Source: Niveispirillum lacus | GTDB lineage: Bacteria; Pseudomonadota; Alphaproteobacteria; Azospirillales; Azospirillaceae | Assembly (NCBI RefSeq): GCF_002251795.1 | Contig: NZ_NOXU01000032.1 | Location: 496,001-560,000, forward strand | Length of the DNA stretch: 64,000 nucleotides | Reading direction: 5' to 3' | In this document: piece by piece, positions 25,918 through 64,000 of the stretch | How positions within the stretch are numbered: the first letter of the stretch is position 1 | Layout of the letters: every line of letters starts with the position of its first letter | Notes under the pieces: model-generated | Database searches by the model: none | What the model saw: only the letters and a program-made list of their open reading frames with translations | Told to the model about the DNA's origin: nothing | Translations under genes and position numbers: made by a program

Positions 25918-27108
25918 TCAGGCTCCTTTCACGGATGGGCGGCGGAAACGCTGGCCCAGACCCGTGGCGTGGCGGTTACGCGGGGCAGCGGTCGGGTTCT
26001 GGCGGGCGGCATCGCCCGGCTGGGTCAGCCCACCGGGCAGCGCCATGGCGGCGGCGCGCGGCGCGGTCTGAAAGGAATTCTGGGTCAGCAGCGCCGCGCC
26101 CGACAGGGCGGCGGCGGCGTTACTGTGGGCGCTGGCACTGGCGCGGGCAGCAGTGGCAGCGGGAGCCTGGACAGTGACCAGGGGGGCACCGGTGCGGGCG
26201 GGCCCGGCCTGACGGCGGACTGTATCAGGCTGTCCATGCAGGTTCAGGCGCCAGCCCGCCGTCAGTGTTGCCGCCACCCGCAGGACCAGCAGCATCAGCA
26301 GGCTGAACACGCCTGCCCCCAGCAGGACCGACACGGCCAGTTCCGGCGTCGGGGTCCCGCCTGCCAGGGCCAGGTCCGACAGCATCGGCGCAATCAGGGC
26401 CAAGGCACCGGTACCCACCAGCACAGTCAGCAACGGCACGATGGCAAACAGGATGGCGGCACGCAGCCACCCTTCGAACAGGCCACTGGTTGCCCTGAAC
26501 AGGGCGAGAATGATGAAGACCGGGCCCAGCGCCAGCAATGCCGCCAGCGCGATCTTGGCAGCAACCAGCACGCCCACGGTCCCAAACAGCAACAGCAGCG
26601 AGGCGATCCACAGCAAGTCCGCCGGGCGCATGCCGGCCAACATCGTCGGTTTCTCAGCCCCCGCAACCGCCGACTGTCGCGCTGCGTCCAGTACCAGTTG
26701 AAAGAGCTGATCCAGACGGTCAGCGAACAATGACGGGGCCGACCCGCGTGTCCCGGCCAGCAGCGAGGCCAGATGGTCGGGCGCTCCCACCAGCAGGTTC
26801 CAGACCACCTGATGATAGGCGGCCCAGGAGGTGGCAAAGCACAGGACCAGGCCCAGCCCCATCATGCGCGGGGTCAGGCTGGACAGGCCCACCCCGGTGC
26901 GGCCTGTCAACATCCGCACCGCCATCAACGCGACATAGAGCGTCAGCAGCAGGGTCAACGCCTGACCCAGCGCACCATCAGGGCCCAGCAGGGTCGAAAA
27001 GGCCTTTTCCGTGGTCTGGGCGGCCAGACAGTCTACGGCGCGCAGCGCAGCGGCCACACCGCCTTGTCCATCCAGACTGGAAAATCCGGGGCAGGTCGCG
27101 TTGCTCAT
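25918..27108 (-). CDS. virB6: Type IV secretion inner-membrane channel protein VirB6
   Basis: This 396-residue polytopic protein has about six hydrophobic segments between residues 48 and 285. The conserved central stretch is LGPVFIILALFRATSGLFEGWLRA, as in TrbL/VirB6. The last ~110 residues are Ala/Pro/Arg-rich and low in complexity, probably a cytoplasmic or periplasmic tail. VirB6 forms part of the DNA or protein path through the inner membrane. The start overlaps the virB4 stop (ATGA), and its stop lies 2 bp before the virB9 start. The usual virB8 gene is missing from this junction. Confidence 0.9.
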   Translation of the reverse strand: MSNATCPGFSSLDGQGGVAAALRAVDCLAAQTTEKAFSTLLGPDGALGQALTLLLTLYVALMAVRMLTGRTGVGLSSLTPRMMGLGLVLCFATSWAAYHQVVWNLLVGAPDHLASLLAGTRGSAPSLFADRLDQLFQLVLDAARQSAVAGAEKPTMLAGMRPADLLWIASLLLLFGTVGVLVAAKIALAALLALGPVFIILALFRATSGLFEGWLRAAILFAIVPLLTVLVGTGALALIAPMLSDLALAGGTPTPELAVSVLLGAGVFSLLMLLVLRVAATLTAGWRLNLHGQPDTVRRQAGPARTGAPLVTVQAPAATAARASASAHSNAAAALSGAALLTQNSFQTAPRAAAMALPGGLTQPGDAARQNPTAAPRNRHATGLGQRFRRPSVKGA

Positions 27109-29501
27109 TCCGCTGCCATCCTTTCCACATTGGGCCGATCCGTCGCGCCGGGCCAGGGCGTGCCCGTCAGGCGGGGATACCAGCGGTCGGGATCATCGCC
27201 GGTGCTGGCGCGGATCATGTCCAGACGGCGGACAGTGGCCTCCCGCCCCGACAGCACCATCAGCATGTCATTCATGCCGCCCAGATCCAGGCGCGGCACA
27301 ATGGAATGGTTGGCGTGGCGAACCAGGAAGCAGCGGCCATGCGCCGGCAACCCACGGATCAGGTCCAACTCATGCGCCGACAGGCCGAACCCGGCGCAAT
27401 AATCATCCTCCCGCGCCTTGGGATTGGGCATGAAGATCATGGTGGAGGTCTGTTCGACAATGGCGCTGGCGATGCGGCTGTCCAGCGCGTCGCGGGCCGA
27501 TTGCGTGGCGAAGCCGACAATGGCGTTGCGCTTGCGCAGTGTCTTCAGCCAGTCGCGGATACGCGCTGCAAAAACCGGATCGTCCAGTGCCTTCCAGCCC
27601 TCATCAATCAGGATCATGGACGGGTCCCCGTCCAGCCGCTCGTCAACCCGGTGGAACAGATACATCATGGCCGGCGTGCGCAAGGCCGGCACGTCCAGCA
27701 GCGCCGTCATGTCAAAGCCCAGGACGCGCGCATCCAGATCCAGCCGGTCCTCACCATTGTCGAACAGCCATGCATGTTCACCCGCCCCGATCCAGGGCGA
27801 CAGACGGCTGGCCAGATCGCCCGGCATGGGCCGGCTGGCGCCCGACAGCAGTTCGCGGAAGTGACGCAGGCGGCGCAGATGCGGGGCATGGTCGAAACAG
27901 GCATCAACAGCATCGGCAATCGCCGCCTCTTCCTCCGGCCCCTCTGCCTTCAGCAGGCACGCCAGCCACAGGCGCAGAAAGGCGCGGTTGACGGGGCTGT
28001 CGGGCAATTGCAGCGGGTTCATGCCCGACGGCTCGCCGGGCAGCAGGCGGCTGTAATGGCCGCCGATCCCGCGCAGGAAAATCTCCGCCCCCCGGTCCTT
28101 GTCAAAGAAGATGGTGCGCGGCTTGAATTTCTGCGCCTGGGCCGCCAGGAAGTTCAGCACCACCGTCTTACCCGACCCGGAGGGGCCGATGATGGTGAAA
28201 TTGCCCAGATCGCCTTCGTGGAAATTGAAGAAATAGGGCGTGGCGCTCGTCGTCTCGAACATCGTGACGGCGTCACCCCAATGGTTACCGCCGGCGCTGC
28301 CCAGGGGGAAACCATGCAGCGACAAGAAGCCGGCGGCATTGGCCGTAGAAATCAGGGCGCGGCGGACCAGGAAACGCTCATTGCCGGGGAACTGGCCCCA
28401 GAACAGCGGTTCCAGGTTCACATCTTCGCGCACGGCAATGGCACCCAAATCCGACAGGGCGGCACCGGCCAGGGCCACGGCATCATCCAATGACGTCAGG
28501 TTATCGGCTCGCACCACCAGCCCCAGATGGTGATCCCCGAACCCAACCTGCCCCGCCGACACCGCGTCGCGTGCGGCCAGCATCTCCGCCCGTTCGGTCA
28601 CCGTGTCCTCATCCGTGGCACGATGACGGCGCAGTGCCAGATCCATCCGTTCGCGCGCCGTCTGCCGGTCCACCGGGGCAAAGCTCTCCGTCAGGGTCAA
28701 TTCGATGGGCAGGCGCAGGATATTGTCCAGAAGGCCGGCGCGGGTGGCGTCGGGATATTCCTTCACCGACAGGCCGGCGGCCACCTGACGGCCCTGCGGA
28801 CCTGCCAGTTCCAGCGCCTCGACACCGAAGCTGACACGGGCATAGGGGATATGGCGGCCGATATCGGTGCCCTTGGGCGGCAGCAGGACGGGCCGCATCT
28901 CCCCGTTATACAGCGCCGACAGCAGCTCCAGCACTTCCGAGCAGGGCCCATGTGCCGTGTCATAGGTGCCGAGGGCCCGCGCGCTATAGGGCTCCAGACC
29001 GGCAAGCAGGGCGCCCACTGCGGCGTCCAGGGCACGACGTTCGCTGTCCAGCCGTTGGGCCGACCGGCCCCGCGACAGGATACGATCCACCAGCCCAGCC
29101 TTGCCCCGCGCGGGGCGACGCAGAATGGTCAGGAACTGTTCATTGATGAACAGCCGACGGTCAGACAGCCGTTCTTGCCAGCGGCGGTCGATAAGGCCCG
29201 CCAGCGGGCTGTCGAATGTCGCGGTCAATTCCGGCTGGATACGGCGGCGGATGACATGGTGATAGATGACATGACGGGCATCCAGCGCGGACCGCAGCAT
29301 CACCTCCCGGACCGCCAGCCGGTGGTTCAGCGCCTCTGAATCCTCTGTTTCAAAGGCCAGACCCGCGACATGGAGGGTGCGCAGCAGCGACCCGTCGCGC
29401 AGCAGCAGGCTGCCATCCTCCAGCAGCGCCTTATAGGGCAGCCGGTCGCCAGCGCAGGCTTCTCCACCGGCCCAGGATGCGGGGCCTTTCCATGTCGGCA
29501 T
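27105..29501 (-). CDS. virB4: Type IV secretion ATPase VirB4
   Basis: The product has about 798 residues from the ATG at 29501, chosen because GGAG precedes it. A start at 29603 would overlap the virB3 gene. The CagE/TrbE/VirB N-terminal domain covers roughly 160-370, and Walker A is GPSGSGKT at about residue 438. Walker B is SMILIDEGWKALDD, and the FATQSARDALDS segment is conserved in VirB4 ATPases. The enzyme powers pilus assembly and substrate transfer at the inner membrane. All motifs are intact, so the machine is probably not a relic. Confidence 0.94.
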   Translation of the reverse strand: MPTWKGPASWAGGEACAGDRLPYKALLEDGSLLLRDGSLLRTLHVAGLAFETEDSEALNHRLAVREVMLRSALDARHVIYHHVIRRRIQPELTATFDSPLAGLIDRRWQERLSDRRLFINEQFLTILRRPARGKAGLVDRILSRGRSAQRLDSERRALDAAVGALLAGLEPYSARALGTYDTAHGPCSEVLELLSALYNGEMRPVLLPPKGTDIGRHIPYARVSFGVEALELAGPQGRQVAAGLSVKEYPDATRAGLLDNILRLPIELTLTESFAPVDRQTARERMDLALRRHRATDEDTVTERAEMLAARDAVSAGQVGFGDHHLGLVVRADNLTSLDDAVALAGAALSDLGAIAVREDVNLEPLFWGQFPGNERFLVRRALISTANAAGFLSLHGFPLGSAGGNHWGDAVTMFETTSATPYFFNFHEGDLGNFTIIGPSGSGKTVVLNFLAAQAQKFKPRTIFFDKDRGAEIFLRGIGGHYSRLLPGEPSGMNPLQLPDSPVNRAFLRLWLACLLKAEGPEEEAAIADAVDACFDHAPHLRRLRHFRELLSGASRPMPGDLASRLSPWIGAGEHAWLFDNGEDRLDLDARVLGFDMTALLDVPALRTPAMMYLFHRVDERLDGDPSMILIDEGWKALDDPVFAARIRDWLKTLRKRNAIVGFATQSARDALDSRIASAIVEQTSTMIFMPNPKAREDDYCAGFGLSAHELDLIRGLPAHGRCFLVRHANHSIVPRLDLGGMNDMLMVLSGREATVRRLDMIRASTGDDPDRWYPRLTGTPWPGATDRPNVERMAAE

Positions 29502-29527
29502 AGGATCTCTCCACCGGAAGGGGGCGG

Positions 29528-29806
29528 TCACGCCCCGTAGGAATTGCAGCGCCAGCGCTTCCAGTTGCGGATACGCGGACAGGTGGTGACCTTGGTCAGC
29601 CACAGATCAAAAATCCGGGGCTCACGCAGGCAGGCCAGGTAGCCGGCGCCATGCACCAGCAACGCGACGGGCAGGGCCAGAAAGGACCGCGTGACCAGAA
29701 AGGCTTCCGTCGTCACCAGCAGGTTGATGACAAAGAAGTTGTAGGTCACGCCCGCAAACATCTGCGGCCGGGTCAGGGCGCGGAACACGGGAGCACGGGT
29801 CAGCAT
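29528..29806 (-). CDS. virB3: Type IV secretion protein VirB3
   Basis: This is a 92-residue inner-membrane protein of the usual VirB3 length. A hydrophobic pair of helices (TYNFFVINLLVTTEAFLV and FLALPVALLVHGAGYLA) is followed by the conserved region around REPRIFDLWLTKV. VirB3 assists VirB4 in pilus assembly. It sits 12 bp after virB2 and 26 bp before the preferred virB4 start. Confidence 0.88.
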   Translation of the reverse strand: MLTRAPVFRALTRPQMFAGVTYNFFVINLLVTTEAFLVTRSFLALPVALLVHGAGYLACLREPRIFDLWLTKVTTCPRIRNWKRWRCNSYGA

Positions 29807-54254: not shown

Positions 54255-54710
54255 TTATTCCTCGGCCGCACCACTGCTGAGGGTCTTCACATCTTCGTTC
54301 GGGGCAATCTCGCGGGCCTTGATGGCGCTGACCGCAAGTACCTGGCCCATCAAACCTTCCAGATGGTCATTGGCGGCGCGCAGATTACGGGCCAGAATGC
54401 GGACGATGCTGGCCACAAACGGGTCGGCATCGGCCAGACGCTGGCGCACCTTTTCCCCGGAAATGACGATCAGCGTCGTATCCTCCACCGCGTGGGCGCA
54501 GGCCGACCGGGTCCCTTCATCGATCAGGGCCATTTCACCGAACAGACAGTTCGGCCCCACCTCGGCCAGCACGACCGGATGCTCCGGTTCGCCCCGCCAG
54601 ATGCGGATGCGGCCCGATTGCACCAAATACATATGCTCGCCCCGGTCTCCGGTCAGGAACAGTTGCTTGCCAGCGGGAACAAATTTACGGTTGAGGATAC
54701 CTTCGGCCAT
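54255..54710 (-). CDS. Stand-alone cyclic-nucleotide-binding domain protein
   Basis: This 151-residue protein is essentially one cNMP-binding domain (AGKQLFLTGDRGEHMYLVQSG at the start, then NCLFGEMALIDEGTRSACAHAVEDTTLI). The phosphate-binding cassette FGEMALIDEGTRSA keeps the Gly-Glu and Arg used to hold cAMP or cGMP. A helical tail of about 40 residues follows, with no helix-turn-helix, so it is not a Crp-type transcription factor. It lies 70 bp downstream of the cyclase gene in the same direction and is the obvious candidate to read the cyclase signal. Confidence 0.87.
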   Translation of the reverse strand: MAEGILNRKFVPAGKQLFLTGDRGEHMYLVQSGRIRIWRGEPEHPVVLAEVGPNCLFGEMALIDEGTRSACAHAVEDTTLIVISGEKVRQRLADADPFVASIVRILARNLRAANDHLEGLMGQVLAVSAIKAREIAPNEDVKTLSSGAAEE

Positions 54711-54780
54711 TGCCCGATCCCTGAATTAGCATACGGTGGTTATCGTTCCCTGCACCCGCGCTGGCAAGGTAATGTTGGGA

Positions 54781-56724
54781 CTACTTGTCACTCATGATGA
54801 CAAGGTCGCTGTCCCCGCCCTTGGCCAGCCGTTCACGATGCAGCGCGACCGGCCCATCATCAGGCTGCTGCATCGCCAGGGCCTCAAACAGTGCTGCTGC
54901 CCCCGTCTGTCCCGACGCCAAGGCGGCATAGGCCCGCTGATAGCCCTGCATGAAGACACTTGCCGCCTCTTCATCCGTCAGGGGCTGGAACACCGCGATG
55001 GGTTCGGTCTTGCCCTTGAGGACGATCCGGCCGATGGGCCGGCGCGGGAGGTCAGGACAGCGCTCCGCCGTCGCCCCGCTCATCGCCACCCGGGTACCGA
55101 AATACTTGTTCAGGCCTTCCAGCCGGGCGGCCGTATTCACGGCATCGCCCAGGGCAGTATATTCAAACCGCGCCTCGGACCCGAAATTGCCCACGCTGGC
55201 CGGGCCGGAATGAACCCCGATACGGGTCATGCCAAAGGGACGCCCCGCCGCGGTTTCCGCCGCCAGGAAGGATTGCGCGAACCGATCTAGCTCCAGGGCG
55301 CAAGCGGCTGCACGGGCGGCATGGTCCGGCATATCGCGCGGGGCCCCAAACAGGGCAAAGACGGCGTCACCGATGAACTTGTCCACCGTACCGCCATGGG
55401 CGAACACAACCTTCACCATTCCGTCCAGATACCGGTTCATGACATCCGCCAGGGTTGTGGCGTCCATGCCCTCCGATATGGTGGTGAAACCGGCAACGTC
55501 GGTGAAGACATAAGACATGTCACGACGCTTCGGATCGATAGACAATTTTGACGGGTCCTTCAGGATATCATCCAGCAGGACCGGCGACAGATATTTGGCA
55601 AAAGCCGCCTGCACGAACCGTTTCTGGTCCCGCTCCTGCCGTCCGCGCCAGATATCGGTCAGCCACAGGCCCAGCAGCACTGACAAGGAGGGGCCGATCT
55701 GCGGCAGCAAGAGATTGCCTTTGGCAAAGGCCGGCCCCGCCAGCAGCCAGAGACCCGCCACCACCCCGAACCCCAGCAGCGCACGCAGCCATAGCGAGAT
55801 TTCCACCAGACCCAGGATCAAACCCAGGCCTGCCGCGATCAGCCCGGCAGCCACCGCCAGCGCCAACCCCTGGTTCGGGGCCGTCCGCTGCTCCAGCAAT
55901 TGTGACAGCGCATGGGCATGGATGGTGATACCGGGCAACACCCCGGCATTACCGGCAAAGGCCGTGCGATAGGGCGTCACATGCCGGTCACGGTCCGACA
56001 GGTCGGCCCCCACCAGGACAATCTTGTCCTTGAACCAGGCCGGCGGCAGCAGCGAGACAGCATGGGCCGGAAACTGCCGGAAAGGGGCCGTCGCGGCATC
56101 GGGCCGTCCGCGCCAGGCGATGGGTATCAGGCTTTTTGGGGGGGACAGGCCCAGATGCGCTGCCAGGGCCGGCACCACGCCGGCCTGCCACTGTCCATCC
56201 GCCCCCGGTTTGCCGGGGAAAATCCAACGGACGGTTCCATCCAGATTATCCTTGACCAGGTTGGCCCAGCCGCGCCGGTCGGGCGGCACGAAATCGTTAA
56301 TATAGGCCACTTGCGCTTCGGTCAGCCCTTCTGCGGCACTGCCGTGACTGACCACCAGCGGGATGGTCAGTTCACGCAGGGCCGCCGCCAGGGCAGCATC
56401 CTTTACCGCTTCCGTGGGTTGATCCAGCAGCACGTCCAACAGAACTGCCTTCGCCCCCTTGGCCTGCAAATTGCGCAGCAGATCGGCCAGGAACGCCCGG
56501 TCGACGGGGGAACGATAGGGAAACCGCGCCAGCGTATCCTCATTGAGGGCGACAATAACGATGTCAGGCTGCTGCGGTTGCGCCGGTGTCAGGGTCGCCA
56601 CCCGATAATCCGCCACCCAATTCTCGATCCCCTGCAGAAACGGGGCCGCCCGTACCAGCAGTACCGGGGCCAGACCCGCCAGCAGCAGGATCACAAGCAT
56701 GGTCGTGAGGCGGCGAACGGGCAT
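54781..56724 (-). CDS. CHASE2-domain class III adenylate/guanylate cyclase
   Basis: This 647-residue membrane signalling enzyme has an N-terminal helix (TTMLVILLLAGLAPVLLVRA) leading to an extracytoplasmic CHASE2 sensor domain at about 25-270 (QPDIVIVALNEDTLARFPYR, RAFLADLLRNLQAKGAKAVL). Three closely packed helices follow at about 285-355, then a short linker and the cyclase domain. The catalytic domain shows SYVFTDVAGFTTISEGMD (metal Asp), KFIGDAVFALFGAP (Lys and second Asp) and FEYTALGDAVNTAARLEGL (Asp, Asn and Arg). All catalytic residues are present, and the Lys/Asp pair favours ATP. It lies 6 bp after the FecR-like gene. Confidence 0.93.
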   Translation of the reverse strand: MPVRRLTTMLVILLLAGLAPVLLVRAAPFLQGIENWVADYRVATLTPAQPQQPDIVIVALNEDTLARFPYRSPVDRAFLADLLRNLQAKGAKAVLLDVLLDQPTEAVKDAALAAALRELTIPLVVSHGSAAEGLTEAQVAYINDFVPPDRRGWANLVKDNLDGTVRWIFPGKPGADGQWQAGVVPALAAHLGLSPPKSLIPIAWRGRPDAATAPFRQFPAHAVSLLPPAWFKDKIVLVGADLSDRDRHVTPYRTAFAGNAGVLPGITIHAHALSQLLEQRTAPNQGLALAVAAGLIAAGLGLILGLVEISLWLRALLGFGVVAGLWLLAGPAFAKGNLLLPQIGPSLSVLLGLWLTDIWRGRQERDQKRFVQAAFAKYLSPVLLDDILKDPSKLSIDPKRRDMSYVFTDVAGFTTISEGMDATTLADVMNRYLDGMVKVVFAHGGTVDKFIGDAVFALFGAPRDMPDHAARAAACALELDRFAQSFLAAETAAGRPFGMTRIGVHSGPASVGNFGSEARFEYTALGDAVNTAARLEGLNKYFGTRVAMSGATAERCPDLPRRPIGRIVLKGKTEPIAVFQPLTDEEAASVFMQGYQRAYAALASGQTGAAALFEALAMQQPDDGPVALHRERLAKGGDSDLVIMSDK

Positions 56725-56730
56725 GGTTGA

Positions 56731-57411
56731 TCAGTTCGCGGCCAGCAGCGCGCGCGCCTGCCGGTCGCACTGCTTGGCTGCCATCCAGCCGGCCGCCATT
56801 TTCGGCGCGGAGATGCTGGTCGGCAACTGGTGGAACGTCACCGCCGACGCTGTCCCGTCCAGCTCAAACAGCAGTGTCCCACCATCAGTGATGGGCAGTT
56901 CTGGCAGGGCCAAGCGCCCCTCCCCCGCCGGCCATTCGGCATTGGCGGTCCAGGCCCGGTCGGCGGGCATCAGGGTCAGGCTGGCGGCTTTGGCCGAATC
57001 GGCCCGCCATAACACCAGTTCCTGGCCCGGCTTCACGCAGACCGCACCCGATACCGCCGGGTCGATCACCCACGCGTCCGGCAGCGGACCCGGCGTTCCG
57101 GCATCCCGCACGGCCCCCAGGCTGGTCGTGTCGTTACCCCGTGCCGACAACAGGCCCGCCAATGGCTGGGTGGCCCCCTGTCCGACACTGACCGGGGTGC
57201 CCTTGAACGGTCCGCGCAGCGTCACCTGCGACCCGTCCTCACCGATCAGGACCAACCGCGCCCCATCAGCCAGGGTCAGCGGGACCTTGTCATCAATGGT
57301 GGCACCGGGGGTCAGGTCCGTACCCTTGGCCTCCACCACCACCAGCGGGGCCGCATGGGCCGGAAGGGCCAGGAACAGGGCCAGCGCCAGGATCGTGACG
57401 GGGCGGAACAT
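56731..57411 (-). CDS. Exported FecR-like protein of the CHAT/MBG operon
   Basis: The product has 226 residues, with an ATG 7 nt after AAGGGAG. A signal peptide (PVTILALALFLALPAHAA) is followed by a beta-rich region like the FecR beta-helix (TLADGARLVLIGEDGSQVTLRGPF at about 48-71), which is the feature used for the call. The second half has GQELVLWRADSAKAASLTLM and a Cys near the end. No membrane helix remains after cleavage, so it is probably periplasmic. FecR-like proteins with CHAT and CHASE2-cyclase neighbours occur in several lineages; its role is unknown, perhaps as a ligand of the CHASE2 sensor. Confidence 0.65.
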   Translation of the reverse strand: MFRPVTILALALFLALPAHAAPLVVVEAKGTDLTPGATIDDKVPLTLADGARLVLIGEDGSQVTLRGPFKGTPVSVGQGATQPLAGLLSARGNDTTSLGAVRDAGTPGPLPDAWVIDPAVSGAVCVKPGQELVLWRADSAKAASLTLMPADRAWTANAEWPAGEGRLALPELPITDGGTLLFELDGTASAVTFHQLPTSISAPKMAAGWMAAKQCDRQARALLAAN

Positions 57412-57414
57412 GGA

Positions 57415-60384
57415 TCAAACTCCCTTGTCGGATTGCGGGGCGGCACCCACCAGGGTAAAGGCCGCCCAATTGAAAGGATGCGCCGAGGCGGGATCGGACG
57501 CCAGACTCCTTTGCGCCCGTGCCAAGGCAACCGCGATATCGCCCTCACCGGCAAACAGGCCAGTCATCAGGCGGACAGTCGGCACCGACGGCACCTGCCA
57601 ATGACTGACCAGCAGCGAGCGTGCGCCGGCGAAAAAGAAACTTTCCGCCAGACCGGACAGCGCCTCACCACCCAGCCGCGCATCCCCCCCCGCCGTATTA
57701 CAGGCCGACAGAACCACCATATCCGCATTCAGGCGCAGAAGGGCGATATCAGAAGCGGTCAGCAGACCATCATCGGCGGGGCTGGAGGGTGGGACAGGGG
57801 GCGGGGCCAACGCCAGACCGGGCTGCGACTGGCAACGCAATTCTCCCGGCAACAAGCCATGGGTAGCGAAATAGACAATACGATATTGGTCCAGGCCTGC
57901 CCCGCGCACCGCGGCCTTAGTCACCCTTTCCCCGGTGATCAGATCAGCGGGGGCGGCACCCAGCCGCCCACCGATGGACCGGATCTCATCGGCCGTTTCC
58001 GGCAGCGGCGCCAGGGCGCGGAGCAGGGCCGGGTCCAGGGCGGCATCGGTTCGGCATTCCTCGCCCAGCGCTTTCAGCCCGCCTGTATCCCGTCCCTGAA
58101 ACGGGGGGGCGGCAAAACCAATGAAGGGTTTGGGTGCCGATGCGCGGGCCGTCGTCCCCGCCAGCGCCAGGAAGGACGGGACCGACGGCACCACCGACAC
58201 CGCCATGTCACGGACCAGCCAGGAGGCGCCGGCATAATCGCGCGCTGTCGGCCTGTCGCGGACCAGAAGGGCGGGCGGCAGGCTGGAAAGGGCAGCCGAC
58301 GGCACCAGTACCAGGTGCTTCACATCGGACAGAAGATCTGTGGCCCCACCGAACAGCCGACCATAGAGATCGTAAGACAGGTCCAGATCGAAGGGCGGCA
58401 GCACGCCGGCGCGCGGCGTAATCGAGCGGCGTAACTCCCCCACTTGGTCCTGCAAGGCGGCACGACTGATCGGAACTGGATAGGCGAAGACCCCCTTGTC
58501 GGTCAGGATGAACCCGTATGATCCCGCCATGCCGAACGCAAACTGCACCAGGGCCTGACCCGGTCGCAGCCGGGACGATAGATCGGCGGGGCGTACAGGC
58601 CCCGGTTTGGTCAGCCTTGCATAATCAGGGAAAGCCGCCTGCAGCTGCCGCTCCAACCCCTGGGCAACATTTGTGGCTTCTTGCAACTGCTTGACCAGGG
58701 CTTCCTCGCGTGCCCGGTCCCGTTGTCCGTCCAGCTTTGCGGTTTCGGAGGCCAGTTCGATCCGCAGGCGGTCGCGGCTGCGCACAGCGTCCTGCTGCTG
58801 CCGGATCAGGTCGGAAACGGCGGGATCGCTGCTGGCAAAACGGGCGGCGGCACGGGTGATGGTCTGCCCCACCACCCCTTCACGCACAGCCTGCAGGGCC
58901 GTGAACATTTCCGCATGAAACTCGGCCCGTCGGTCGGGTTCCGCCTGGGCCATGCGATACAGCGTATCCAGGAACGGGATCAGGCGGTCCAACGGCAATT
59001 GTCCGCGCTCCGTATCCAACCCCGCCACCATCGACAGCGCCTCGCGATAGATGGCCAGGGCTTCCGCATCCAGGCCAGCCTGGGCATAGACACGACCCAG
59101 TTCCAACATGCTGGATGCGACGGGCCATCCGGCCCCGAATAATTGTTTGTTGGACGCAACAGCCTTTGACATCAGGGCAGCGCCGCCCGCCGCGTCACCC
59201 TTGCCGGCCCGCGCCAGCCCCTGCATGCCCAAAATCCGGGCATGCCACCAGGGCGGCAGGCCGCGTGTACGGCTGAACAGGGTCGCGGCCTCCAGGGTCG
59301 CCGCTTCGGCCAATCCGAACTGTTCCAGGCGCAGGGAAACCGTTGCCTCCAGCAGCAGTGAATGGATCAGGTCACCTCGGGCTGCGGCCAGACTGCCCAG
59401 CACGGCCCGGTTGGCCCCACCGCCGGCCTGTTCCTCCAGATCATCGACCAGGGCCCGGCGGATGGCACTGCTGTCGCGGCCCAATGACAAGGCGCGGCGC
59501 GCATCACCGGAATTGGCGGCGTGAAACGCCATGTAACTGCCCAGTCGCGCCCGCGCCGCCTTGTCAAAACTCTTCTGCAACAAGGCATCGGCGCGACGGA
59601 ACAGGGCATCCGCCTCCGGTCCCCGTCCCTGGTTCGACACTTCCAGGGCCAGCGCCATCAGCGTATCGCCCGCCCCCGGACTATCGGGGCCCAGGGCACG
59701 GGCCTGCAGGTCCAGCGCCTTACGATAGGCGGCTTCCGCCCCGGCATAATCCTCCACCGAATTGGACAGGCGCCCTACTTCCGACAAGCGCTCAAAGCTG
59801 TTCAGGTCCCCCCGCCCGAACCGCAACGCCTCATCCCCCAGCGCAGCGCGCAAAAGGGCTGATATATCCTGCTGTTGTGTGACCGGTCCGGCCTTCAGAA
59901 GGGCGGGGGCTGCCATCATCAGATCCGCCACGGCCGGAATGCCATCAGCCTGCACCAGGCGCCGACCTTCCACCAGGCTGATGCCGATATAGGGCCAACC
60001 ACCTTCGCGCAGTTGGCATTGGGCCAGCAATCCACCCGGCACGGGCTGTGCTGGTTGACAGATGGCTTTCTGGGCCAGCGATCCGGCCCAGGCCGTGCGA
60101 TTGGTCTCCAGAACCAGTTGCCGCGCCCGCGCGTCCGGCGCTTCCGGCAACGGGTCGTAAAGCTGGGTCACAGCGATGGTACCGCTGGGCTGTTCCCAAA
60201 GCCCGCAATAGAGCGCATAGGCCTCACCGTCCGCACTGTCGGTTGGCAGGGCGCGGCATTCCTCGCCGATCATGTTGCGGCCCATGGCGATGGGCCCGGC
60301 GGCCTGTTCCGGCGCTGGCGGACCTTTGCCGGCACAGGCCGTCAGCAACAGCGCCAGGATCAGAAGGGACAGGCTGCGTATCAT
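57415..60384 (-). CDS. CHAT-domain TPR lipoprotein (caspase-like protease fold)
   Basis: The product has 989 residues from the ATG at 60384, which overlaps the stop of the MBG gene by one base (TGATG). A lipoprotein signal ends in LLLTACAGKG. TPR helices cover about 190-500 (for example AGAEAAYRKALDLQARALG and AGLDAEALAIYREALSMV), followed by a charged coiled coil at about 545-610. The CHAT domain occupies about 680-985. Its catalytic dyad is visible as His about 842 in YFATHGLLPGE and Cys about 895 in VLSACNTAGGD. CHAT proteins are caspase-like cysteine proteases, usually activated through attached repeats. Export as a lipoprotein next to a giant surface protein suggests processing of that protein. 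Confidence 0.92.
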   Translation of the reverse strand: MIRSLSLLILALLLTACAGKGPPAPEQAAGPIAMGRNMIGEECRALPTDSADGEAYALYCGLWEQPSGTIAVTQLYDPLPEAPDARARQLVLETNRTAWAGSLAQKAICQPAQPVPGGLLAQCQLREGGWPYIGISLVEGRRLVQADGIPAVADLMMAAPALLKAGPVTQQQDISALLRAALGDEALRFGRGDLNSFERLSEVGRLSNSVEDYAGAEAAYRKALDLQARALGPDSPGAGDTLMALALEVSNQGRGPEADALFRRADALLQKSFDKAARARLGSYMAFHAANSGDARRALSLGRDSSAIRRALVDDLEEQAGGGANRAVLGSLAAARGDLIHSLLLEATVSLRLEQFGLAEAATLEAATLFSRTRGLPPWWHARILGMQGLARAGKGDAAGGAALMSKAVASNKQLFGAGWPVASSMLELGRVYAQAGLDAEALAIYREALSMVAGLDTERGQLPLDRLIPFLDTLYRMAQAEPDRRAEFHAEMFTALQAVREGVVGQTITRAAARFASSDPAVSDLIRQQQDAVRSRDRLRIELASETAKLDGQRDRAREEALVKQLQEATNVAQGLERQLQAAFPDYARLTKPGPVRPADLSSRLRPGQALVQFAFGMAGSYGFILTDKGVFAYPVPISRAALQDQVGELRRSITPRAGVLPPFDLDLSYDLYGRLFGGATDLLSDVKHLVLVPSAALSSLPPALLVRDRPTARDYAGASWLVRDMAVSVVPSVPSFLALAGTTARASAPKPFIGFAAPPFQGRDTGGLKALGEECRTDAALDPALLRALAPLPETADEIRSIGGRLGAAPADLITGERVTKAAVRGAGLDQYRIVYFATHGLLPGELRCQSQPGLALAPPPVPPSSPADDGLLTASDIALLRLNADMVVLSACNTAGGDARLGGEALSGLAESFFFAGARSLLVSHWQVPSVPTVRLMTGLFAGEGDIAVALARAQRSLASDPASAHPFNWAAFTLVGAAPQSDKGV

Positions 60385-63300
60385 CACCACACCCGCCCCA
60401 GATTGGGAAATTGCTGTTCCAGGCCGGGCGTTCCCTCTGGCGTTTCGCCCGGCAAGCGGCGCTGCTGTGACAATAGACCGGGGATCATCTCCTCCGCGGC
60501 GCTGTCATCATCGGCAGCAGACCCACTGGCAGATTGCACATTCTGGTTCACCGCGGCCAGGGCAGCGCTGCCGCCGTCGGTGGTCGGCGTGGACGGAGCA
60601 GTCGCCGGGGGCGGGGCGGTGCTGACCGGCGCGGCCGGCGCAGCAACCGGGGCGGCTGCGGTCACGGTCGGCACGCTCGGGGCCCGTACCGGCTGTGTCA
60701 CCGTGGTCACCGGGACCGTTTCGGCCACCACCGGTGGCAGGACACCGCCACCGGTCACGGTCAGCACACCATCAACATAGGTGATCTGGTAATTGGCATT
60801 GGCGATGCCGCCAGCACGGATCGCATAGGTACCGGCTGGCGAAGCGCTATCAGCGCTGGTCAGCAAGGACAGGCCGGTCAGGCTGCTCTCCGTGTCGCCA
60901 TTGACCAACCCCTGGAACCGTGCGGTAAAGACGGGATTGGCGGCACCGGCCTGACGTGTCGCATTATCGACCAGCACCGACAGGGGCGCGGGGGTGATGA
61001 CCAGGTCGGCGCCCTGGAAACTGATCCGGTAATTGCCATTGGCGGTCAGGCTGCCCTGGCCGATGGCATAACGCCCGACCGTGGCCCCGGCGGCGCGCGC
61101 CAGGGTGCCAGACAGCACGGTTTCCCCTGCATCCCCGCGCTTCAGTCCTGAGAGCGTGTAGGACAGGGTCGGGTCGGCCGCCCCATAGAGCCGGGTGACG
61201 GCGTTGGCTGTTACCGACAGCAGGGCCGGGTTGATGGTCAATGTCGCGCCCGTGAACGACAAAGTATAATTGCCATTGGCCAGCCCAAGGCTGCCTTGCC
61301 CAATGGCATAAGACCCTACATCCTCCCCGGCCGCCCGTGACAGCGCGCCGGTCAGAACCGTACCGGCACTATCCCCACCTTTCAGGCCCGACACGGCATA
61401 GGTCAGCGTTGGGTCGGCATCGCCATAGGTGCGGGTCACCATCAGGGCCGCCACCGACAGGTTGGCTGGGCTGATCGTCAGAGTACCGGGGGTGAAGACC
61501 AGGACATAATTGGGGTTACTGACCGCCAGACTGCCCTGGGTGATGGCATAGGTTCCCACCGCCTCACCCGCCTCACGGCTCAGGCTGCCGGACAGCACAG
61601 TGCCCACCTTGTCCACACCCTTAAAACCGCTGGCTGTGTAGCCAAAGACCGGATCGGGATCGCCATAGACCTTGGCGGTATTGGCCGCAACAACGGCCAG
61701 GGTCAGGTTGGCCGGGGTGATCGTGAAATCGGCGCCGGTGAAGCGCAGCGTGTAATTGCCATTGGCGGTCAGGCTGCCTTGGCCGATCGCATAGGTACCG
61801 ACATTTTCCCCCGCAGCCCGGACCAGACCACCCGACAGCACGGTGGTGGCCGCATCGCCCCGCTTCAGTCCTGACACACGATAGGTCAGATCCGGGTCGG
61901 CATCGCTATAGACGCGGGTTATCGCGCTGGCGGTCACGGACAGGGCGGCAGGGGTGATGACCAACTGCCCCGACTGGAACGCAATGTCATAATTGCGGCC
62001 CGCGGTGAGGCTGCCCTGTTCGATCGTGTAGGTGCCAACATTTTCCCCGGCCGCCCGACGCAGATCGCCGGTCAGGCTGTCGCCCGTCACAAGACCGGAA
62101 ACGCTGTAGGACAGGCCGGGGTCAGCGTCGCCATAGATTTTAGTCGCCGACAGGGCGGTGATGGTCAGGGGGGCCGGATTGATGGTCAGGGTCCCGTTCT
62201 GGAAGCTGACGCTGTAATTGGGCCCGGCAGACAGGCTGCCCTGGCTGATCGCATAGGTGCCGACATCCTGTCCAGCGGCGCGGGTAAGGCTGCCGGTGAC
62301 CGCATCCCCGCTGACCAGTCCCACCACCTTATAGGTGAGGGCGGGGTCAGCGGCGCCATACAGGCGGTGCAGACTGTCCGCCGTCACGGTCAGGGGTGCC
62401 GGCGTCACGATCAGGGTGGCCGTGGTCCCCGGCCCGCCGGATAGGGTGTAGTTACTGGCCGAACTGCCGGTCAGGCCCGTCACCCGCTGGGTATAGGTGC
62501 CGACCCCCAATTTCGGTCCCAGGGCAACAGTACCGCCGCCGCCTTCCACCACCAGATCAGCCGTGACATCATCGCCCGCCATGACACCGGTGAGAGCGAC
62601 AGCCCCGACCGAAGCCGCCTGACCATAGATGCTGCTGACGTTGGCGACGCTGACTGTCAGCGCCTTGGGCGTAACGGTCAGGATGCCGTGACGGTTGCCA
62701 GCATCGGCAATGACATAATTGGCCGCCGCACTGCCTGTCAGGTCACCAAGCCGCAGCGTGTAGGACCCAACCGGCAGCCGCTCCGACAGGCTGCCGCTTT
62801 GCAGGACGGCGGTGGCTCCGATGACATCACCCTCCACCACCCCGGCCAGGACCGGTGTGGGCGCCAACGGTGCCGTGCCGTAAAGGCTGGTCGTGTCGGC
62901 AATGCTGTAGGTCAGCGATCTGCGCGCCACGGTCAGGGTGCCGATGGCATTGCCATTGTCCGCGACCCGGTAATTGGACAGATCGCTCCCCCCCAGGGTG
63001 ATGGTCTGGTCATAGGTGCCGGCTGCCAGTCTCGCCGAAAGCGTGCCGCCGGCCAGGCCCACCGTGGCAGAGACATCATCACCGTCGATCACGCCTGACA
63101 GGGTCGCCGTGCCAAGGGTGGCCAGGGTGCCGTAAACGGAATTGACCGCCGCCACAACATAAGTCAGGGCCCTTTGTGCAATGGTCAGGCTGCCATCATT
63201 ATTGCCAGCGGTGGCAATCTGGTAATTGGCCGCGTCGACACCGGTCAGCGACGTGACCCTCTGTGTCAGGGTGCCCACCGGCGTCCGGCTGGCCAGGGTT

Positions 63301-64000
63301 TCGACCGTGCCGTTACGATAGGTGGTGACCATACCGCCAACATCATCCCCATTCACCACGCCGGTCAGGGTGACGGCCCCATTGCCCGCCAGCGTGCCAT
63401 AGGTGACGGTGCCATTAGCGACCGAATAGGTCAGGTCCTTGCGGTTGATGGTGAGGGCGGCAGTGACGGGTCCACCTGTCAATTCATAATTGGCCGCTGA
63501 ACTGCCTGTCAGACCGGTCACGGTCTGGGTGTAGGAACCGGCATCGAGGGTAGGCGACAGGGTGACCGTTCCCCCAGTGCCCGACACAGCGACGACACCG
63601 CCGACGGTATCGCCATCCAGAACACCGGTGAAACTGACCGGACCCGTAGTGGCTGTGGTGCCATAGGTGGCCGTAACCGCGGCGATGCTGGCCGTCAGGC
63701 TTTTGCGCGCCACCGTCAGGGTACCGGCGGTGTGCCCGCTGCCGGCCAGCATATAATTGGCGGCAGATGCGCCGGACAGGGCGCCACTGACCAGCGTATA
63801 GCTGCCGGCGGCCAGTCGCGATGTCAGGGTGCCGCTTTGCAACTGCGCCGCCGAGGTCACGGTGTCCCCGGACAGAATACCGGTCAGGCTGGGCGTGGGA
63901 AGGGTGGCCAGGGTGCCATAGGTGCTGGTCACATCACTGATGACATAGGTCAGGGGTTTGCGCGCAACGGTCAGTTGCCCGATTGTATTGCCTGTGCCGG
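60384..64000 (-). CDS. Giant MBG/YDG-repeat surface protein (filamentous-haemagglutinin type), C-terminal part
   Basis: The frame is open through the right edge, so the N-terminus is missing; 1204 residues are visible. Two classes of Ig-like beta repeats follow each other: six copies of about 85-90 residues with an S-x-YGT start (YDG-like), then six of about 75-82 residues with YGDADP-x-L-x-Y-x-V-S-GL (MBG-like), then a degenerate one. The last ~125 residues are Pro/Ala/Thr-rich and end in a charged tail without membrane anchor or sorting motif. Such proteins are often secreted by a TpsB outer-membrane pore; that gene would lie beyond 64000. It begins the CHAT-FecR-cyclase operon. Confidence 0.9.
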   Translation of the reverse strand, partial: GTGNTIGQLTVARKPLTYVISDVTSTYGTLATLPTPSLTGILSGDTVTSAAQLQSGTLTSRLAAGSYTLVSGALSGASAANYMLAGSGHTAGTLTVARKSLTASIAAVTATYGTTATTGPVSFTGVLDGDTVGGVVAVSGTGGTVTLSPTLDAGSYTQTVTGLTGSSAANYELTGGPVTAALTINRKDLTYSVANGTVTYGTLAGNGAVTLTGVVNGDDVGGMVTTYRNGTVETLASRTPVGTLTQRVTSLTGVDAANYQIATAGNNDGSLTIAQRALTYVVAAVNSVYGTLATLGTATLSGVIDGDDVSATVGLAGGTLSARLAAGTYDQTITLGGSDLSNYRVADNGNAIGTLTVARRSLTYSIADTTSLYGTAPLAPTPVLAGVVEGDVIGATAVLQSGSLSERLPVGSYTLRLGDLTGSAAANYVIADAGNRHGILTVTPKALTVSVANVSSIYGQAASVGAVALTGVMAGDDVTADLVVEGGGGTVALGPKLGVGTYTQRVTGLTGSSASNYTLSGGPGTTATLIVTPAPLTVTADSLHRLYGAADPALTYKVVGLVSGDAVTGSLTRAAGQDVGTYAISQGSLSAGPNYSVSFQNGTLTINPAPLTITALSATKIYGDADPGLSYSVSGLVTGDSLTGDLRRAAGENVGTYTIEQGSLTAGRNYDIAFQSGQLVITPAALSVTASAITRVYSDADPDLTYRVSGLKRGDAATTVLSGGLVRAAGENVGTYAIGQGSLTANGNYTLRFTGADFTITPANLTLAVVAANTAKVYGDPDPVFGYTASGFKGVDKVGTVLSGSLSREAGEAVGTYAITQGSLAVSNPNYVLVFTPGTLTISPANLSVAALMVTRTYGDADPTLTYAVSGLKGGDSAGTVLTGALSRAAGEDVGSYAIGQGSLGLANGNYTLSFTGATLTINPALLSVTANAVTRLYGAADPTLSYTLSGLKRGDAGETVLSGTLARAAGATVGRYAIGQGSLTANGNYRISFQGADLVITPAPLSVLVDNATRQAGAANPVFTARFQGLVNGDTESSLTGLSLLTSADSASPAGTYAIRAGGIANANYQITYVDGVLTVTGGGVLPPVVAETVPVTTVTQPVRAPSVPTVTAAAPVAAPAAPVSTAPPPATAPSTPTTDGGSAALAAVNQNVQSASGSAADDDSAAEEMIPGLLSQQRRLPGETPEGTPGLEQQFPNLGRVW
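60900..64000 (-). repeat. Tandem coding repeats of the MBG/YDG protein
   Basis: Units of about 255-270 bp (62400-64000) and about 225-245 bp (60900-62400) repeat head to tail in frame. Copies differ in sequence but keep spaced motifs such as AAGENVGTYAIGQGSLTANG in the second class. The array may recombine and change length between strains. Confidence 0.85.

Follow-up and report, generated by a model that had tools for sequence, protein, structure and literature searches.

Do a giant surface protein, a caspase-like protease and a cAMP module that are encoded side by side in Niveispirillum lacus also work together? The question arises from a window of 64,000 nucleotides (contig NZ_NOXU01000032.1, positions 496001-560000), in which the original prediction had read an operon of five same-strand genes with overlaps or gaps of at most 70 bp. 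The five open reading frames (ORFs) were found just so, in one packed run on the minus strand (positions 54255-64000), with an overlap of 7 bp between the TpsA and CHAT genes and gaps of 3 bp from the CHAT gene to the third gene, 6 bp from there to the CHASE2 gene and 70 bp from the CHASE2 gene to the cNMP gene (Table 1). The MBG gene extends past the end of the window, and the run was completed by reading further along the same contig, where a predicted TpsB, the pore whose presence beyond 64000 had been proposed as a check, lies 9 bp upstream of it. The complete unit consists of TpsB, TpsA, a TPR-CHAT lipoprotein, the third gene, a CHASE2-adenylate cyclase and a cNMP-binding protein. A promoter and terminator scan returned sites no commoner than in shuffled sequence.

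Table 1. Features of the operon (window positions unless marked as contig positions)
Feature	Position	Strand	Basis or remark
TpsB	contig 565891-567576, beyond the window	-	ShlB/POTRA_2
TpsA, C-terminal part of an MBG-repeat two-partner-secretion exoprotein, 3165 aa in full	60384..64000, on to contig position 565881	-	ORF, domain search
TpsA conserved C-terminal tail IPGLL...FPNLGRVW	60387..60485	-	common to CHAT-linked exoproteins
TPR-CHAT lipoprotein, 991 aa: lipobox, N-terminal domain with four invariant Cys, KLC-like TPRs, caspase-like CHAT domain	57415..60390	-	
Predicted catalytic His of the CHAT dyad (FATHG)	57859..57861	-	H in 91/91 aligned domains
Predicted catalytic Cys of the CHAT dyad (SACNTA)	57700..57702	-	C in 91/91 aligned domains
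Third gene, 226 aa, at the 'FecR' position: exported, with a predicted signal peptide, a pair of invariant Cys and a C-terminal half that is Ig/Fn3-like	56731..57411	-	
CHASE2-adenylate cyclase, 647 aa: CHASE2 domain, complete class III cyclase residues	54781..56724	-	
Stand-alone cyclic-nucleotide-binding protein, 151 aa, phosphate-binding motif FGEMALIDEGTRSA	54255..54710	-	

Gene products of the operon

The giant MBG protein, which contains 15 stretches of MBG_2 repeats, carries the filamentous-haemagglutinin secretion domain TIGR01901 at its N-terminus (48.5 bits, cut-off 29.1), and the adjoining TpsB has both POTRA and barrel parts (POTRA_2, 70.7 bits; ShlB, 88.1 bits). On these two grounds it was assigned as a two-partner-secretion (TPS) exoprotein, in line with the proposal that it is a secreted surface protein; the Pfam TPS family itself found no match in TpsA in the Pfam scan. 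Elsewhere in the same genome (contig C25, locus L154, 8445-10432), TpsB, secretion-domain and CHAT fragments lie in a row as a broken second TPS-CHAT set. In another locus (L002, 18773-19999) a metallo-beta-lactamase-fold hydrolase is encoded upstream of TpsB, with a weak likeness, far below cut-off, to a cyclic-nucleotide phosphodiesterase model.

The next protein, described in the original prediction as a CHAT protease lipoprotein, has a CHAT domain (173.7 bits) and TPRs, a lipobox (LLTAC) at its N-terminus and an intact His-Cys dyad. Most CHAT proteins of the aligned set bear a lipobox or a signal peptide by simple sequence rules, and the four N-terminal Cys are kept across an alignment of 15 relatives, a pattern that would fit an oxidizing compartment. 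The protein thus looks exported, and we regard it as a predicted caspase-like protease of the envelope. Its AlphaFold model (mean pLDDT 81.8) matched the Craspase TPR-CHAT protein (Csx29) and separase in Foldseek, and its TPRs scored best against kinesin light chain. It shares with Craspase TPR-CHAT the TPR and CHAT architecture and fold and the His-Cys dyad, but differs in being exported by sequence rules and tied to secretion genes. The large envelope protein DdvA, a transmembrane anti-sigma factor with a different output, was also among the top Foldseek matches, at a low TM-score.

The 'FecR-like' label given to the third gene found no support in its sequence: the protein has no Pfam match at E<=1, PF04773 included, and profile comparison gave no alignment with a FecR protein. 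A DUF928 identity was likewise rejected by profile comparison. A profile search of solved structures with this gene found nothing, and Foldseek with its structural model was uninformative (best TM-scores about 0.28 to the query). For the C-terminal half VIA-align returned many Ig/Fn3 rows, with MtxA among them as a weak match (Z 5.4 over 98 residues). According to the accessible text of PMC4439547, MtxA is a periplasmic protein of magnetotactic bacteria, in Magnetospirillum encoded just before a CHASE2 cyclase gene as the third gene is here; that text, unlike the present operon, describes no TPS or CHAT, and it reports no phenotype for an mtxA deletion.

The last two genes bore out what had been claimed for them. 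The cyclase protein combines a CHASE2 domain (123.8 bits) with a class III cyclase domain (60.4 bits) bearing the complete set of predicted adenylate cyclase residues. Across 43 aligned CHASE2-cyclase proteins the two metal Asp positions, the Asn and the Arg are kept, with Glu at one Asp position in a single protein, and the Lys varies in six. The final protein consists of a cNMP_binding domain (67 bits) with no other Pfam domain, and its phosphate-binding motif is kept in 18 of the 19 cNMP genes near a CHASE2 cyclase. In two relatives that were scanned (L057, 15617-17077; L059, 15606-17048) the last operon gene encodes both an MscS beta-domain and a cNMP domain, as in bacterial cNMP-gated MscS channels; the gene in the window lacks the channel part.

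Recurrence of the gene grouping

CHAT loci were sampled in three ways, from the organism's own family, as the best CHAT hit per genome in 60 genomes of the class outside the family, and as relatives in named genome contigs, and custom-built profiles served to type the genes lying up to 3 kb from CHAT. Among the 60 alphaproteobacterial loci outside the family, TPS genes were found within 3 kb in 14 and CHASE2 in 19, one or the other in 29, and the third gene in 8. At three further loci (L072, L099, L128), additional to the 14, CHAT is adjoined by a giant ORF that went undetected by the profiles but resembles an exoprotein in composition. As background, ShlB hits occur in 41 of 142 genomes of the class and CHASE2 in 186 of 385. 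Per-locus rates of 3% and 2.2%, which we set as deliberately generous estimates and not by empirical shuffling, gave binomial probabilities of about 2e-9 for TPS and 3e-17 for CHASE2, tails that serve as guides only because the loci are related by descent. Linkage of CHAT to TPS and to CHASE2 is far above chance.

Confinement of the gene order to close relatives was the main result that the original prediction had named as counting against it. The full order TPS-CHAT-third gene-CHASE2 cyclase-cNMP was found in the Niveispirillum group, in Rhizomicrobium and in several other lineages, and the same gene set was found again in many alphaproteobacterial families, so conservation extends well beyond close relatives. 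In Sphingobium, Crp, CHAT, CHASE2, a third-gene relative, TpsB and a giant exoprotein stand in one row. Elsewhere in Pseudomonadota, eight loci showed TPS-CHAT or CHAT-CHASE2 neighbors (L134-L136, L139-L141, L144, L151), and the survey reached Cyanobacteria in part, on the basis of two plasmid loci, TPS-CHAT in Trichormus and CHAT-DUF928-CHASE2 in Calothrix. A search of viral contigs found no relative. The best match in a plasmid collection was a plasmid of N. cyanobacteriorum, with identical gene order and 82% identity in CHAT. The window also encodes a VirB4-type conjugation ATPase (27105-29603), which agrees with the operon being plasmid-borne in that species.

The set is not fixed. TpsA-CHAT occurs without CHASE2 (L036, L044), CHAT-CHASE2 without a detected TPS in 15 of the 60 loci, and a FecR-CHASE2 pair without CHAT (L029). 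In one locus of the organism's own family (L183, 6613-17517) a CHASE2 cyclase, TpsB and TpsA share a strand with gaps of 3-9 bp, and no CHAT was detected in the 20 kb locus. Each of the three pairings of TPS, CHAT and CHASE2 is therefore found repeatedly and in several arrangements, none of the pairs is indispensable and the modules can part; since CHASE2 or the third gene is missing from several relatives, the unit is better described as a core of TPS and CHAT to which a cAMP module may be added. The coupling of the genes itself is well supported. On a FastTree built from 120 CHAT domains, 10 changes are required to explain the TPS label. Taken over all association groups, clustering was stronger than with shuffled labels, none of 200 shuffles scoring as low; the two small groups that lack the C-terminal tail described below showed no clustering on this tree.

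A shared tail in CHAT-linked exoproteins

Most CHAT-linked alphaproteobacterial exoproteins share an ending, IPGLL and/or G-N/K-E/D-x-L-W, which was first noticed in a set of exoprotein C-termini, the search patterns being derived from much of the data later counted. The strict pattern G[NK][EDTS].L[WF] was present in the last 60 residues of 17 of 5071 ORFs, all of them giant proteins at CHAT genes, and IP[GN][LIM]L in 26 of 5071, all in CHAT operons; some rows are duplicates of one locus. One exoprotein with the strict tail (L193) is directly adjoined by its CHAT gene. The strict pattern (GNExLW type) was absent from all members of a small control group, seven complete exoproteins away from CHAT. 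When both patterns were pooled and alphaproteobacterial-type tails tallied by hand, the tail was present in 20 of 24 CHAT-linked exoproteins against none of these seven (Fisher test, 1e-4, patterns and counts coming from largely the same set). Outside Alphaproteobacteria the strict tail was not seen, and CHAT-linked exoproteins of other groups have different endings.

This shared tail of the CHAT-linked alphaproteobacterial exoproteins, which appears to be new here, suggests a physical relation between CHAT and the exoprotein, and is a better candidate contact for CHAT than the TpsA repeat units. Since the kinesin light chain family binds Trp-acidic peptides, the tail may be a plausible ligand of the TPRs of the CHAT protein.

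A possible envelope circuit and its alternatives

From the gene order, domains, export signals read by sequence rules, intact active sites, conservation and tail motif observed here, we infer the following binding, cleavage, chemistry, signal direction and output. TpsB would secrete the MBG exoprotein N-terminus first, so that the tail would be the last to leave the periplasm. The TPR-CHAT protein, either anchored in the envelope or free within it, would bind this tail, probably via its kinesin-light-chain-like TPRs, and clip, release or clear the exoprotein. The state of the CHAT-exoprotein complex would be sensed across the periplasm by the CHASE2 domain and the product of the third gene, the cyclase would make cAMP in response, and the response would be carried by the cAMP receptor that the operon itself encodes, a free-standing domain here and an MscS-type channel in other families. 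This model as a whole, in which a TPS system is equipped with an envelope protease and a cAMP read-out of its own, is the best explanation we can offer, at somewhat less than an even chance. Its best supported step is that CHAT works with the exoprotein, which is fairly probable given adjacency in many families, export signals, the intact dyad and the shared tail. The chance that CHASE2 reads the state of CHAT and exoprotein is about even, on the basis of linkage and of the CHASE2 cyclases of Sinorhizobium meliloti, which respond through an outer-membrane barrel acting upstream (PMC13001267); the dispensability of the S. meliloti FecR-domain protein SMc02177 for signal perception, given in the accessible part of PMC5498481, counts against the model. 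Output through the local cAMP receptor is suggested by gene order.

The operon might instead join two separate modules for expression only, a TPS exoprotein with a CHAT maturation protease and a sensor of an unrelated outside signal made up of the 'FecR'-position protein, CHASE2 and the cNMP protein, with no signal passing between them. TpsA-CHAT and FecR-CHASE2 each occur alone, as noted above, and FecR-CHASE2 operons are known in Burkholderia (accessible text of PMC5192318), but CHAT also lies near CHASE2 where no TPS was detected and the CHASE2 cyclase lies beside TpsB and TpsA where CHAT was not, and we consider such independence doubtful. The tail could also serve TpsB as a signal for outer-membrane retention or for interaction with the pore, with CHAT acting elsewhere, for example in clearing stalled or misfolded envelope proteins. 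Other TPS exoproteins anchor via their C-terminus, the tail is the last secreted part, and its restriction to Alphaproteobacteria, with different endings on other CHAT-linked exoproteins, would suit this idea. The co-occurrence of tail and CHAT across families, and the lack of the strict pattern in the seven exoproteins that have a TpsB and no CHAT nearby, make it unlikely.

Least probable by far is a self-killing or defence circuit with the CHAT protease as effector, as in Craspase. Defence systems do contain CHAT, cyclase and cNMP-binding parts, the cyclase has a PADLOC match to Pycsar PycC, and the CHAT fold matches that of Craspase, but the PycC match spans the cyclase domain only, the CHAT protein, which appears to be exported, goes unmatched in PADLOC, and the cNMP protein has no fused TIR or membrane effector. 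With its cyclase fused to CHASE2 and its 151-aa cNMP protein free of other Pfam domains, the operon was not assigned to Pycsar.

Returning to the model of an envelope protease with a cAMP read-out, its closest known counterparts each hold a part of it. The FhaB TPS system of Bordetella likewise has a giant exoprotein, processed from the C-terminus in the periplasm, but through the proteases DegP, CtpA and SphB1, where the present operon encodes a caspase-like CHAT protein together with a cAMP module (PMC8263021). In BiofilmReg of Burkholderia and CyaD1/SMc02177 of S. meliloti, too, the gene of an exported protein adjoins or lies close to one for a CHASE2 signalling protein, but the accessible portions of these reports (PMC5192318, PMC5498481) describe no TPS or CHAT, the Burkholderia signalling protein is a histidine kinase, and the third gene here, unlike those of FecR-CHASE2 operons, has no detectable FecR sequence. 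A full-text literature search, with subscription papers mostly outside its reach, found no paper that brings CHAT together with TPS or filamentous haemagglutinin, or with CHASE2.

The grouping appears to be a so far undescribed means of processing a surface protein and of informing the cell about it. A speculative extension, which we hold to be rather unlikely, is an envelope circuit of wide distribution: an exported protease of the caspase-like kind would read the tail of a giant exoprotein, and a CHASE2 cyclase would pass this on as local cAMP, gating an MscS-type channel in some lineages. If true, exported CHAT proteins would gain a candidate substrate, with a tail motif that a short peptide could probe, CHASE2 domains would gain a candidate input, and surface-protein secretion would be linked to cAMP signalling across many families.
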